This document shows, one piece after another, positions 2,172 to 8,240 of a stretch of 64,000 bases of DNA. The position numbers were made by a program, and so were the translations under genes. The DNA comes from Hyphomicrobium methylovorum (GTDB lineage Bacteria > Pseudomonadota > Alphaproteobacteria > Rhizobiales > Hyphomicrobiaceae). The notes under the pieces are model-generated. The model worked only from the letters and a program-made list of their open reading frames with translations. It had not been told where the DNA came from and did no database searches. The stretch lies in assembly GCF_013626205.1 (NCBI RefSeq), contig NZ_QHJE01000001.1:310001-374000 (forward strand), read 5' to 3'. Position 1 is the stretch's first letter, and the number at the start of each line of letters is the position of its first letter.

Positions 2172-2587
2172 GCGACCACCTCCGCCTTGGGCATGGCATC
2201 CTTGATGCTGGCGAAGATGTTGCGCTCTTCCGTCCAGTATTTGTGGAGTTTGGCCTGTTCGACTTCTGCAGCGCGGCCTTTGAGTTCAAAGGCCTTCGCG
2301 CCAATGGTGAAGTGAAACCGGCCATTGTCGCAACCCTCGGCCCATCCGTCTGCGTTTTCGAGCGGGTGGCCATAGAGGCACATGCCATCGGGGAAGAAAT
2401 TGCCGAGCACTTGGCACAGGCGGGCGTGGAATGTGAACAGGTCACCGTGTCCGCGCGGATAGGTGTCCCAAGTGTACTGGATGAAGGCGAGAACGCTTTC
2501 CAGTCCGCCGTTCCAATGCAGATAGAGGGCAACGGGATGCTGTTCGCCTTTGTCGTTCTCAAGGGTGAGGATGCAGCGGTTACCCAT
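2168..2587 (-). CDS. hypothetical protein of the mobile element
   Basis: A 139-residue protein starting MGNRCILTLEN, with HWNGGLESVLAF near residue 25 and GFFPDG-like and DNGRF motifs further on. Nothing in it indicates a catalytic role to me. The frame extends to 2638, but the ATG at 2587 is preferred because it overlaps the end of the upstream gene by only eight bases and gives a cleaner N-terminus. It is co-directional with its neighbours on both sides. Confidence 0.5.
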   Translation of the reverse strand: MGNRCILTLENDKGEQHPVALYLHWNGGLESVLAFIQYTWDTYPRGHGDLFTFHARLCQVLGNFFPDGMCLYGHPLENADGWAEGCDNGRFHFTIGAKAFELKGRAAEVEQAKLHKYWTEERNIFASIKDAMPKAEVVA

Positions 2588-2813
2588 GGCTGGCCTCCAC
2601 GGCTTGCCAGTTGCGGCCGATGAGCGTGCGCTCGTCACGCGAGAAGCTCAGTTCGGCATCGCAGCCGAAGCGGGCGAAGAGTTCGCGGGCAAGGGTTACG
2701 GCGTTGCGCTTGCCATAGGCTAGAACGTCAACGGCGGTGGGTTCGGGTGCGCGGAAGCGTACACGGTACGCTTTCATGGGTTTGCGGTTCATGGGTCTGA
2801 CGTTGACCGGCAT
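2580..2813 (-). CDS. small basic hypothetical protein, first of a run
   Basis: A 77-residue basic protein (MPVNVRPMNRKPMKAYRVRF at the start). It has a strong Shine-Dalgarno AAGGAGA eight bases before the ATG at 2813. As the first gene of the eight-gene minus-strand run ending at 175, its upstream DNA (2814-3010) probably carries the promoter or leader. That DNA holds a long palindrome and copy 1 of the structured element, about 92 bases before this start codon. Confidence 0.5.
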   Translation of the reverse strand: MPVNVRPMNRKPMKAYRVRFRAPEPTAVDVLAYGKRNAVTLARELFARFGCDAELSFSRDERTLIGRNWQAVEASHG

Positions 2814-2848: not shown

Positions 2849-2878
2849 TCGAGGGGTAATGTCCGCGACATTACCCTC
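2849..2878. promoter_or_regulatory. strong palindrome in the leader of the 2813 gene
   Basis: GGGTAATGTC, CGC, GACATTACCC forms a 10-bp perfect inverted repeat. It extends through CGAG/CTCG to about 13 pairs with one bulged G. It lies 36-65 bases before the start codon of the minus-strand gene at 2813. It could be an operator for a dimeric repressor or an attenuator; it has no U-tract on the minus strand, so a simple terminator is unlikely. Confidence 0.5.
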
Positions 2879-2904: not shown

Positions 2905-2974
2905 GCCAGTCAAGGGAGGCTCCGCACGAGGGGCCCCGCGCTACTGGGGATACGTGTGGATGCCCTTGACGGGC
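2905..2974. ncRNA. structured element, copy 1
   Basis: A nested hairpin. The terminal stem is GTCAAGGG (2909-2916) with CCCTTGAC (2963-2970), extended by GCC/GGC past an A-G mismatch. Inside, CCGCACG (2922-2928) pairs with CGTGTGG (2953-2959), and CCCC (2934-2937) pairs with GGGG (2946-2949) around an 8-nt loop. The core 2917-2937 and 2946-2962 is identical to copy 2 at 3865-3905, while the terminal stem and the loop differ. Conserved core with a re-paired stem points to a folded RNA or DNA structure. Strand is not known; adjacent genes read on the minus strand. I do not recognise a known family. Confidence 0.6.
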
Positions 2975-3003
2975 TGGGGGGCAACGCCCCCGTTCAAGAA
3001 ATC

Positions 3004-3029
3004 AAAAAACACGTCGCGCTCTTAGCGCG
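3004..3029 (-). terminator. possible minus-strand terminator
   Basis: Read on the minus strand, CGCGCT and AGCGCG (3029-3015) form a 6-bp hairpin with a 3-nt loop, followed after five bases by six T (3009-3004). It would end transcription from the small membrane-protein gene at 3761-3546. Confidence 0.4.
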
Positions 3030-3480
3030 GCTCAAAGGCTGCGTTGTCTGATGAACCTTCGCTGCCAGCAATCGGCTTCTGCCGATGCATGGACGGTCGT
3101 CTTCGTCAGCCGAATAGCAATCGCATCCTGCCGATCGCGGGATACCGCAGTCGGTTGACGGCGAGCCGACGCTGTCACGGCCAGTCAGGGTGGTCACGTT
3201 CACTTCGTGGACATCCTGGCGGCCGTGGGCGTCGGCGAGCCGCGGGCCAGCGTTGGACTATTCACCGGACGCAATGGGAAGACCACGAAGCCCCCCAGAC
3301 ACACCCGCGAGCGCCCGAAGCTTGCGGTGACAAGCGAGGCAGCAGGCGGGCGAGCACGGCGGCGCAGCCGCCGCGCCGCAGCCCGTTTGCAACGAAGCAT
3401 GGCGGGGCGAGCGAGGGGTAAACGCGAGCGGGCGGCAAGGGGGCGACCAACGGGAGCACCCGCCGCCGTCACAGGCATAG

Positions 3481-3501
3481 ACCGGCGGAAAACCCGCCGG
3501 T
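3481..3501. repeat. 8-bp hairpin between genes
   Basis: ACCGGCGG (3481-3488) pairs with CCGCCGGT (3494-3501) around AAAAC, 45 bases past the stop of the minus-strand gene at 3546. The plus side is followed by TTGTTG. It may act as a weak bidirectional terminator. Confidence 0.35.
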
Positions 3502-3545
3502 TTGTTGCAACCGCTGTTCCCAGAGTGAACCCGCGCATGCGGCGT

Positions 3546-3761
3546 TCACCGCAAGGGCAGGTCATCGGGATAGTCCTCGGGCCACTTGCCGTTCTTCGCG
3601 TAGTTGTTTCTCGCGAAGCGGTGCTTGCGAAAGAACCCTTCGCGTTTGAGGCGTTCAAGGCGCACTTGCTCCATGCGATAGAGCAGATACCAGATGCCGG
3701 TTGCGGTGTTCATTATCGCCCAAAACGTCACGTATTTGCCGATGATGATGATGTCGTCCAT
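3546..3761 (-). CDS. small single-span membrane protein
   Basis: A 71-residue protein. Residues 4-28 (IIIIGKYVTFWAIMN through WYLL) form one hydrophobic span, followed by a basic and then acidic tail. The ATG at 3761 has AAAGGAA eight bases upstream; the frame continues to 3968, but that part crosses structured element copy 2 and is unlikely to be translated. Function unknown; it probably sits in the inner membrane. Confidence 0.5.
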   Translation of the reverse strand: MDDIIIIGKYVTFWAIMNTATGIWYLLYRMEQVRLERLKREGFFRKHRFARNNYAKNGKWPEDYPDDLPLR

Positions 3762-3804
3762 GTGTTGTTTCCTTTCTTTGTTGGTGAGGGAATTATCGCC
3801 CATG

Positions 3805-3950
3805 GCCTTCGGGCCGTCACAGACCGGCGACACCACGTTGACAAGGAAAGCACGAGCTATTCGGAGGCTCCGCACGAGGGGCCCCTCTGGGGATACGTGT
3901 GGATGCCGAATAGCGTTGGTTACGGAGCCGCGTCTTGACGGCCCGAAGGC
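3805..3950. repeat. 15-bp inverted repeat enclosing structured element copy 2
   Basis: GCCTTCGGGCCGTCA (3805-3819) is the exact reverse complement of TGACGGCCCGAAGGC (3936-3950). Pairing continues inward through AGAC/GTCT and CGGC/GCCG with single-base bulges, giving about 23 pairs that enclose the covarying hairpin at 3856-3914. Copy 1 does not have the same outer arms. The whole segment fills the gap between the DUF2958 gene and the small membrane-protein gene. Confidence 0.6.
3856..3914. ncRNA. structured element, copy 2
   Basis: The terminal stem GCTATTCGG (3856-3864) pairs perfectly with CCGAATAGC (3906-3914). The core 3865-3905 begins AGGCTCCGCACG and ends GGGGATACGTGTGGATG. The inner stems are CCGCACG/CGTGTGG (one G-U) and CCCC/GGGG around TCT. 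All core bases outside the loop match copy 1, but the terminal stem is entirely different and still fully paired. It lies 95 bases before the ATG at 3761; copy 1 lies 92 bases before the ATG at 2813. Confidence 0.6.
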
Positions 3951-3994: not shown

Positions 3995-4369
3995 TCATGG
4001 CGCCGTCTCCGCGAATGCAGGAATGTTGGTGACGATGCGCCCAGCCGGATACGAATACTTCATGTAGACCGAGATCGGTGCCTTCGCGACGAAGTGCCGG
4101 TCGCGCTCGACCGGCAGACCAAGTTTGCCGCGCACGGCTTGGATTTCGCTCAAGCTTACGGTGCCGAACTCGGCGAAGCCGAGCCCCAGATCGCAAAGCC
4201 CCCAGGCGATATCCGGTTCGTCGGGCTCGATCGCAGTGAGCAACCAGGTGCAGCCGGCATCCGGCGTGAACAGCTTCACGACCGGCTTCGGATCGAAGTC
4301 TTCAAGGACGGCTTGCATACGGCCGTTGTGAAGCAGCTGATCGTATTGCGCTTGCAGGAGGAGCTTCAT
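3995..4369 (-). CDS. DUF2958 protein
   Basis: A 124-residue protein containing PVVKLFTPDAGCTWLLTAIE, then FGTVSLSEIQAVRG and LGLPVERDRHF. This is the hallmark order of the DUF2958 family, small soluble proteins of plasmids, phages and integrative elements with no known activity. The length is typical of the family. The ATG at 4369 has GGAGG eight bases upstream, just beyond the stop of the gene at 4373, so the two genes form one unit. It supports reading this region as mobile-element cargo. Confidence 0.8.
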   Translation of the reverse strand: MKLLLQAQYDQLLHNGRMQAVLEDFDPKPVVKLFTPDAGCTWLLTAIEPDEPDIAWGLCDLGLGFAEFGTVSLSEIQAVRGKLGLPVERDRHFVAKAPISVYMKYSYPAGRIVTNIPAFAETAP

Positions 4370-4372
4370 GGC

Positions 4373-4651
4373 TCAGCCCTCCTTGCCCGGCGATTGCGAC
4401 CACGTCGGCGTTGCGCCGTTGTGGTCGGTGAGAACCACGTTGGGTTCGATGGCGAGGAACAGCGGCTCAATGAACGTCGTATCGCCTTCGTAGGTGACGT
4501 TGACGAGCGCCACGGCAGGTTTGCCATCGGCGAAGCAGGAGAACAGCGCGGGTCGTGCATCTGGGTTGATGAGTTTGTCGAGCGTCAAGGTATGGCTCGG
4601 TTTGATGTGGCTGACCGCAGCAGATGCTGGGGTCGTTGTCGTGCGGGTCAT
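4373..4651 (-). CDS. small hypothetical protein upstream of DUF2958
   Basis: A 92-residue protein with a Thr/Ser-rich N-terminus and a beta-rich centre (FADGKPAVALVNVTYEGDTT). It is not recognised. Its stop lies four bases before the DUF2958 start, which suggests co-expression. The Shine-Dalgarno (AAGAAAG) is weak. Confidence 0.45.
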   Translation of the reverse strand: MTRTTTTPASAAVSHIKPSHTLTLDKLINPDARPALFSCFADGKPAVALVNVTYEGDTTFIEPLFLAIEPNVVLTDHNGATPTWSQSPGKEG

Positions 4652-5015
4652 TGGACGTGACTTTCTTGTTGGAAGGGGCCACGCCGTGCGGCCCCGTCGC
4701 GAACGCCACGACGGGCGTTGAAGGACGGCCGGGCAAGGGCTGAAACCGAAGGCGACGAAAAGGGGATAAAGGGGCCCCTTTGCAGGCGGCCCTTGTGCGG
4801 ACGGCCACGTCCGTCAGGCTCGCGACATCTCAGGGGCTTACGGCTGCTCCGGCGTCAACAGACACGTCACGTGATGACGTGCACACATCCCCACACGCCT
4901 GCGTCTCAGCGCAAGCAGGCCGGACCTTTCCTTGATCCTCAATTTAGCGCCACGTCGAAGTGGCGACTGCTCGCTTGCGCTTGTTGTATACATTTAGCTC
5001 GACTAGAATCTGCAT
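4652..5015. other. intergenic region, 364 bases
   Basis: Divergent spacer between the 4651 minus-strand gene and the 5016 plus-strand gene. It contains a GGGGCC/GGCCCC hairpin near 4675-4695, a perfect 14-bp palindrome AAAGGGGCCCCTTT at 4768-4781, and the promoter at 4981-5009. No gene is convincing here. Confidence 0.45.
4981..5009 (+). promoter_or_regulatory. sigma70-like promoter for a leaderless mRNA
   Basis: TTGTTG (4981-4986), a 17-base spacer, then TAGAAT (5004-5009). The expected transcription start, about seven bases downstream, coincides with the ATG at 5016. No Shine-Dalgarno is visible, so the mRNA may be leaderless. Confidence 0.45.
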
Positions 5016-6918: not shown

Positions 6919-7329
6919 TTACTGCTGAGCGCCCGGCAAGGTGTCAGCCCCGTTGTCCTCCTTCACATATCCAGCGTCCGCTAAATACTTCTCGGCCGGG
7001 ATGGAAATCATGTCGAAGCTTTTAGACCAGTAGATGCGAAGCTCAGCATACTGGCGCGTATCGGGGTCGCCGTCCTTCGGCACAATCTCCTTCCAGTCAA
7101 TGCGGTGGCCTTCGCGCGCGAGCCAGGCGATGAGTTTCATCGCCGCGCGTGTGCTTTGCAGGCGCAATGGCTTGTCCTGAGCCACGTGCAGCATCTCGTG
7201 GCCAGCGTCTGCCTCCTTCCACATCAGCTGGCGCAGGCGTTCGATATCGAACAGCTCGCGCGCGTAGGCTTCGCGGGCCTTTATCACCGCTGTCATCAGT
7301 TGCGACGGGGGTAGGCCTTCGTGCTTCAT
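6919..7329 (-). CDS. hypothetical protein coupled to integrase
   Basis: A 136-residue protein, helical and charged, with MLHVAQDKPLRLQSTRAA in the middle. No known domain is recognised. Its ATG overlaps the integrase stop (7326-7329), so it is translated from the integrase mRNA, and a terminator follows it. A small partner of a tyrosine recombinase could be a directionality or accessory factor, but nothing in the sequence proves this. Confidence 0.5.
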   Translation of the reverse strand: MKHEGLPPSQLMTAVIKAREAYARELFDIERLRQLMWKEADAGHEMLHVAQDKPLRLQSTRAAMKLIAWLAREGHRIDWKEIVPKDGDPDTRQYAELRIYWSKSFDMISIPAEKYLADAGYVKEDNGADTLPGAQQ

Positions 7330-8240
7330 CCGCCCAGGTAGGTCTTGGTGATCTGGATACGATTGTGCCCAAGCTCTTGCGAAAGCTGACGGCGGGCGTC
7401 CTGGTCAATTTCCCACTCGCGACCGCGCAAGGTCTTCGGATCGGGACCACCTTTTGCCGGACAGTCCATCCCGCCACTTAGCTGCTTGTAACGCCATTGC
7501 GCCCAGCCATGGCGCAAGCCGTGGGTGTTCCGCAAGCCAACTCGTAGCGTTTGGTACTCATAGGCCTTGAGGTGCTCGATGTAGTTCCGGCCTTGCGGAA
7601 TCAGCGCACAGGAACCGGCCAGCGCGTGAGCACAGTCCAGTACTTCTCGCTGGCGTTGGTGCGTGATCGGCACAAAACGCGGTCGACCGCCCTTGGCCCA
7701 CGAGCCGCGTAACTGAATGCCGTTGCCCTGGTCGGCGTATGACGGGTTGAACTTGATCGCTTCTTCACGCCGCAAACCAAACGCTGCTTGAAGCTCCAAA
7801 CTCATCGCGATGTACGGATCATCAATCTTCGTAAGCTTCTCGCGGTCAAGTTTCTGGGCTCGCTTTTCCATGCGCCGAACCGGTGCCACGCCGTAATCGG
7901 CATTGTGCCGCAACATTACGGACTTCTTGTTGACCTTCTCCGCCCACCACCGCACCGCCGACAGCCGGTTCGCAATGGTCCCGTCTTTCAACCCTTGCGA
8001 TTGCCAAAGCGTCACCAGCCCCTGCACATGCTTGGGCTTCAGCGACTTCGCCCCCGGCAAATGGTAGCCCAGGCTTTTGATGTCCCGGGCCACCGCTTGC
8101 AGCATGTCATGCCGGTTGGCTCGCGTGGCGAAGCTGCCCATCTTTGATTGGGCACACAGGTTCTTCAGGTCGAACGCCAACGCGTCCACGTCATTTGAAT
8201 CCTCGTTAGTTTTTATGTCCGCCTGCCATGCACGTAGCAA
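7326..8240 (-). CDS. tyrosine recombinase (integrase) of the mobile element
   Basis: A 304-residue site-specific recombinase expected to integrate and excise the element. Residues 15-110 form the helical SAM-like DNA-binding domain, and the catalytic domain follows. The expected residues are present: Arg157 in FGLRREEA, Lys183 in WAKGGRPR, His240-x-x-Arg243 in THGLRHG, His292 in ELGHNR and Tyr301 at the C-terminus. The overall form resembles the Integrase_1/Phage_int_SAM_2 type seen in integrative elements. The start is a TTG at 8240 without a clear Shine-Dalgarno, so the first residues are uncertain. No attachment site or tRNA was found next to it. Confidence 0.85.
   Translation of the reverse strand: MLRAWQADIKTNEDSNDVDALAFDLKNLCAQSKMGSFATRANRHDMLQAVARDIKSLGYHLPGAKSLKPKHVQGLVTLWQSQGLKDGTIANRLSAVRWWAEKVNKKSVMLRHNADYGVAPVRRMEKRAQKLDREKLTKIDDPYIAMSLELQAAFGLRREEAIKFNPSYADQGNGIQLRGSWAKGGRPRFVPITHQRQREVLDCAHALAGSCALIPQGRNYIEHLKAYEYQTLRVGLRNTHGLRHGWAQWRYKQLSGGMDCPAKGGPDPKTLRGREWEIDQDARRQLSQELGHNRIQITKTYLGG

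Follow-up and report, generated by a model that had tools for sequence, protein, structure and literature searches.

Two structured elements located upstream of two small genes in the window (i.e., the whole 64,000-nt stretch of Hyphomicrobium methylovorum DNA analyzed here) raise the question of which molecule folds at this locus, an RNA read from the coding strand or the single-stranded DNA of a mobile element, and what the fold is for. In the initial annotation, two copies of an identical core with different apical loops (8 nt in copy 1 vs. 3 nt in copy 2) and with perfectly paired terminal stems of unrelated sequence were described, and all these features were found as claimed. On the minus strand, the common core reads GGCATCCACACGTATCCCC-loop-GGGGCCCCTCGTGCGGAGCCTCC, and the order within each copy is P1 - CAT - CC(A)CACG - TAT - CCCC - loop - GGGG - CCCCT - CGTG(C)GG - AGCCT - P1'. 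The P1 stem of copy 1 is formed by GTCAAGGG/CCCTTGAC and extended by GCC/GGC past one mismatch (2905-2907 with 2972-2974), while that of copy 2 consists of GCTATTCGG/CCGAATAGC. The distance to the minus-strand start codons, previously given as 92-95 bases, agrees with the measured values (Table 1). A chance repeat was ruled out, as the two-copy pattern was reproduced in none of 100 shuffles of the window, and both strands of both copies fold well below shuffled sequences (z from -3.7 to -4.4). Copy 2 is additionally enclosed by a 14-bp inverted repeat, absent from the initial annotation, which is kept with one mismatch in a homologous locus (L010).

Table 1. Coordinates of the hairpin elements and of neighboring features within the window.
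Feature	Position	Strand	Details
77-aa gene	2580..2813	minus	ATG 95 nt downstream of copy 1 stem
Hairpin between copy 1 and ATG	2851..2878		GAGGGGTAATGTCCGCGACATTACCCTC; resembles downstream hairpin of other leaders
Hairpin element, copy 1	2905..2974	minus	core 2915-2964; P1 2909-2916/2963-2970
71-aa gene	3546..3761	minus	ATG 94 nt downstream of copy 2 stem
14-bp inverted repeat enclosing copy 2, arm 1	3805..3818		partner 3937-3950; read directly
Hairpin element, copy 2	3856..3914	minus	core 3863-3907; P1 3856-3864/3906-3914
14-bp inverted repeat enclosing copy 2, arm 2	3937..3950		read directly
DUF2958 gene, same island	3995..4369	minus	homologues in L005, L033 and L034 directly behind element
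Integrase (Phage_int_SAM_2/Integrase_1), right end of mobile island	7326..8240	minus

The entry point to relatives of the element was a match on a Bradyrhizobium plasmid, upstream of a DUF2958 gene, and more members were gathered by a pattern scan of genomes and BLAST searches of plasmids. A covariance model built from five sequences and run on 385 genomes of the class gave strong matches (E below 1e-8) in eight of them, including the window's own genome; at E 0.1 ten genomes passed, the additional matches being weak and taken as false. With a second model, based on fourteen sequences, matches were obtained in 16 of 397 genomes of the order to which the window's genome belongs, presumably Hyphomicrobiales, and none was found outside the class among 299 genomes of the phylum. 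Altogether, about 30 distinct homologues were recognized on alphaproteobacterial plasmids and in integrated islands (E down to 1e-17). Copy 1, which is part of the training set, has E values between 1e-17 and 1e-20, and the two window copies are the only close ones in their genome. A divergent third copy (C1:1080697-1080757, i.e., L061:697-757; minus strand, E 3e-13) is not immediately followed by any obvious gene; a relaxase gene is located about 25 kb upstream of it. The G854 element is the same, at the same coordinates, as that of the Acuticoccus plasmid NZ_CP133484.

The earlier statement that the element belongs to no recognizable family holds for Rfam 15: at gathering thresholds, no family other than a tRNA passed in the window and 28 loci, and the weak matches (E up to 5) were of the kind expected by chance. 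Several candidates were discarded, i.e., two Paracoccus plasmid matches (L012 and L013), which look like ordinary terminators with one short word in common, as well as low-scoring model matches in G269, G475, and G118 and the second match in G130, which were treated as false. A phage or viral origin was also rejected, since there was no exact match in viral contigs and phage matches stayed at chance level.

The alignment of 30 distinct sequences strongly supports selection on the fold, which had been proposed from the two copies alone. In total, 89% of cells are paired, 63 cells, spread over three helices, are changed on both sides (double compensatory), and 27 further pair types were noted beyond these; such counts are biased in favor of the model, to which the alignment was fitted, and are not fully independent, as the sequences are related. 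The covariation score was reached by none of 500 shuffles, and slid controls collapsed. The terminal stem (helix 1) stays complementary in almost all homologues (95.6% of cells paired), and covariation is present in P1, P2, and P3, including the core stem; in P2 it is visible by eye (CACG/CGTG, AACG/CGTT, ACCG/CGGT). On either side of P2 there is an asymmetric internal loop, and the two loops are similar (approximately YMU by NCCU in the coding sense). At one inner-stem pair (alignment A7, columns 12/86), most homologues have A.C on the coding strand, which corresponds to G.T on the opposite strand. Two loci (L005 and L017) contain a second core within the first.

The position of the element supports the earlier view that it acts in cis on a gene behind it. 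A same-strand start codon preceded by a ribosome-binding site was located at a distance of 65-100 nt downstream in 20 loci; the spacing in 19 measured loci has a mean of 83 and an sd of 11, and the twentieth (L026) was added by reading its sequence. The genes behind the element encode ArdC, DUF2958, a methyltransferase-like protein, unassigned small proteins, and a family of small proteins with the signature FWTKIGxAWxHDDG, behind which a DNA methyltransferase gene is often found. Within the window, the 77-aa product matches no Pfam family and the 71-aa product none above the cut-off; an orthologue of the latter in L010 is preceded by the element at an identical distance. Roughly ten further copies lack a gene of this kind immediately downstream. 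Some copies (G130, G237, G854, and others) are not directly followed by a gene; those in the three named genomes lie on the strand opposite to the relaxase.

Fixed placement on the coding strand, 65-100 nt before a start codon, is what would be expected of an ordinary regulatory RNA in the 5'-UTR (riboregulator, attenuator, or protein-binding leader) that controls how the following gene is translated or terminated, and this is the chief rival of the reading preferred below. It is also consistent with the extra hairpins found between core and start codon (one of which, in L028, is terminator-like) and with unpaired CCUC loops, which seem to resemble an anti-Shine-Dalgarno sequence. However, sigma-70 promoters were not enriched over shuffles upstream of, inside, or antisense to the element in 29 sequences, and the pattern of stem variation points to the other strand. 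On both grounds, we consider a leader RNA unlikely, albeit a serious contender.

For the strand comparison, each locus was folded without G.U pairs and the 1x1 mismatches inside stems were counted in coding letters. A.C mismatches outnumber G.U ones by 21 to 5 outside the conserved A.C site, which adds 16 A.C (shuffles 184:115), and pyrimidine.pyrimidine mismatches outnumber purine.purine ones by 29 to 4 (shuffles 476:318); for both tests combined, p is about 1e-4. Read on the other strand, these mismatches become G.T, G.A, and G.G, which are better tolerated, and the stems would thus fold better on the template strand. A leader RNA should instead tolerate G.U in the coding sense, and this is not what the 21:5 ratio shows, a bias that is weaker in a second set of loci. 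The mean fold z is -3.9 for the template and -3.0 for the coding strand, and z is lower for the template than for the coding strand in 21 of 30 sequences. When the strand test was applied to the second set (ten other plasmids with a related gene and mostly a different core), it gave a weak trend that was not significant (18:10 vs. 663:527, p=0.44). A fold on the template strand is therefore favored in one of two tests, and the template is probably, although not conclusively, the folding strand.

The strand on which the element lies was then compared with the direction of conjugative transfer, using relaxase searches of the genome loci and ten annotated plasmids. All 14 gene-linked elements examined (those of 11 genome loci and of L108, L109, and L114) are on the strand that encodes the relaxase, and nine genomic contigs have the element in the same direction as the relaxase gene and within about 10 kb upstream of it. 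Because of this 14/14 agreement, the template strand is likely to be the transferred strand. RSF1010-like candidate nic sites (an inverted repeat followed by AAGTGCG) were found beside the relaxase gene in G947, G471, G1078, G831, G964, and L114, and all six point away from it. With the nic polarity of RSF1010 (PMC4814116), the strand predicted to be transferred agrees with the template strand at all six, an observation not independent of the relaxase count, because relaxase and nic are normally in this mutual orientation. In L108, L109, and L114, however, the gene is found beyond the relaxase, at a distance of 3-5 kb and outside the leading region, and therefore the L114 element would enter late; L108 and L109 share its gene order.

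The window island spans about 293.3-318.3 kb of contig C1 and is bounded by an integrase gene on each side. It encodes ArdC and a family A polymerase, as well as an FtsK/TraB-like ATPase and a rolling-circle initiator of the Rep_1 type. Searches of this island revealed no PF03389 or PF03432 relaxase, no recognizable nic site, and no pC194-type nick site above chance. In plasmids of the pC194 type the displaced strand is the rep-coding strand; should the same apply here, the displaced strand would again be the template for both genes. A Rep_1 rolling-circle initiator and an FtsK/TraB-like ATPase are encoded in L058 (12539-13657 and 15220-16854), in a chromosomal island with an integrase at each end.

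We tentatively propose, at somewhat less than even chances, that the element is a hairpin of the transferred strand by which establishment genes are expressed early. While the mobile element is single-stranded, during its transfer or rolling-circle replication, the hairpin would fold on the template strand of the gene behind it. Establishment genes (ArdC, DUF2958, methyltransferase-like, and others) could thereby be expressed, with the hairpin driving or permitting this step, before the complementary strand is made. The hairpin would presumably be recognized by RNA polymerase or a plasmid protein. We infer that the single-stranded DNA is the functional form and that the element promotes transcription. 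This account is preferred as the simplest, because it fits the fold, strand, spacing, gene type, and transfer direction. Among the options listed initially (RNA, ribozyme, or single-stranded DNA hairpin), the strand evidence thus leans toward the last, and nothing points to a ribozyme.

Single-stranded DNA could also be used differently, i.e., as an initiation site of the ssi/sso type, in which a hairpin in the displaced or transferred strand recruits primase or RNA polymerase for complementary-strand synthesis, its position before genes being secondary. The sso of rolling-circle plasmids are strand-specific hairpins starting synthesis on single-stranded DNA, and the element resembles them in this respect; its strand preference and transferred-strand orientation, the Rep_1 initiator and the family A DNA polymerase of the window island, and the copies without a gene behind would suit such a role. 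Gene spacing, however, is no feature of sso, and neither the tight distance to the start codon in 20 loci nor several copies per mobile element, each before a gene, would be needed for priming, which makes this alternative improbable. Even less probable is an antisense RNA transcribed from the other strand across the leader and folding as a hairpin to repress the downstream gene: the better fold on the antisense strand would be expected, but no promoter signal was found in that direction, and FinP-type systems have variable loops and conserved stems, the reverse of the pattern observed here. A non-autonomous mobile or recombining unit (MITE-like or attC-like), present in leaders by accident, would explain the conserved flanks with exchangeable cores on several plasmids and the nested doubled cores, but is scarcely credible for an element restricted to 65-100 nt before start codons, whose stems covary instead of sharing terminal sequences; a transposon end, addressed indirectly, is likewise unlikely because of the fixed gene spacing.

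The closest known counterparts of the proposed transferred-strand hairpin are the Frpo single-strand promoters, in which a hairpin in the transferred single-stranded DNA enables early gene expression (PMC11541004, PMC9849209). As in the Frpo/ssi elements of F, ColIb-P9, and related plasmids, stable stem-loops, in more than one copy per mobile element, precede establishment or anti-restriction genes of the leading region (apart from L108, L109, and L114), the gene orientation would make the transferred strand the template (14/14 gene-linked copies and the six candidate nic sites), and several copies are near oriT. Frpo are, however, defined by -35 and -10 boxes rebuilt in the stem, and these were not enriched over shuffles in the 29 sequences examined here. 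The element is therefore not filed as Frpo, to which it is also unrelated in sequence; moreover, it differs in its GC-rich core with conserved asymmetric internal loops, its almost exclusive occurrence in alphaproteobacteria, and the location of some copies outside the leading region. The STAXI motif (RF01728) is likewise structured and repeated, and is found close to genes for antirestriction proteins, SSB, and integrases; its authors also raised the question of RNA or single-stranded DNA (PMC2864571); unlike the element described here, which has no Rfam match, it is a tandem pseudoknot of Enterobacteriales.

Early anti-restriction expression from single-stranded DNA has been documented mainly for enterobacterial plasmids with Frpo. 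If the proposed explanation is true, the principle would extend to alphaproteobacteria through covarying hairpins not listed in Rfam, located before ArdC, DUF2958, and methyltransferase-like genes. The element would then provide a sequence handle for uncharacterized establishment and anti-defence genes, and would make it possible to test directly which features other than -35/-10 boxes can start transcription on single-stranded DNA. A broader generalization, which we regard as doubtful, is that hairpin promoters of the transferred strand form a class of their own, widespread among the mobile elements of alphaproteobacteria, lacking sigma-70 boxes and not related to Frpo. Such promoters would be recognized via their conserved asymmetric internal loops, perhaps by an alternative factor or one encoded on the plasmid, and would carry exchangeable cores inside a common outer stem.

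Different cores within related flanks were found on Agrobacterium, Rhizobium, Roseibium, Thiothrix, and Tenderia plasmids. In L046-L056, the flanks CTAAGGGGCTTCGCCCCTCGCGCGGGCAAGG / CCTTGCCCTTGCTACCCCC are common to plasmids of alpha- and gammaproteobacteria, and the cores between them are unrelated. A second core type, GGTCAAT..GCTGCCCGCTC..CGCTCCCGTGTTGCC..TGACC, was observed in L105, L106, L107, L110, and L113 upstream of a small FWTKIG-type gene, near a conserved CTCCCGACCGGCCGCGA leader end. Within the window, a hairpin with a different core and P1-like arms (GCAAGGGC/GCCCTTG, 4733-4740 / 4789-4795) lies upstream of the gene at 4373-4651. Finally, a long hairpin of very high predicted stability (-80 kcal/mol per 120 nt, plus strand) is situated at about 3131-3250, between copy 1 and the 71-aa gene.
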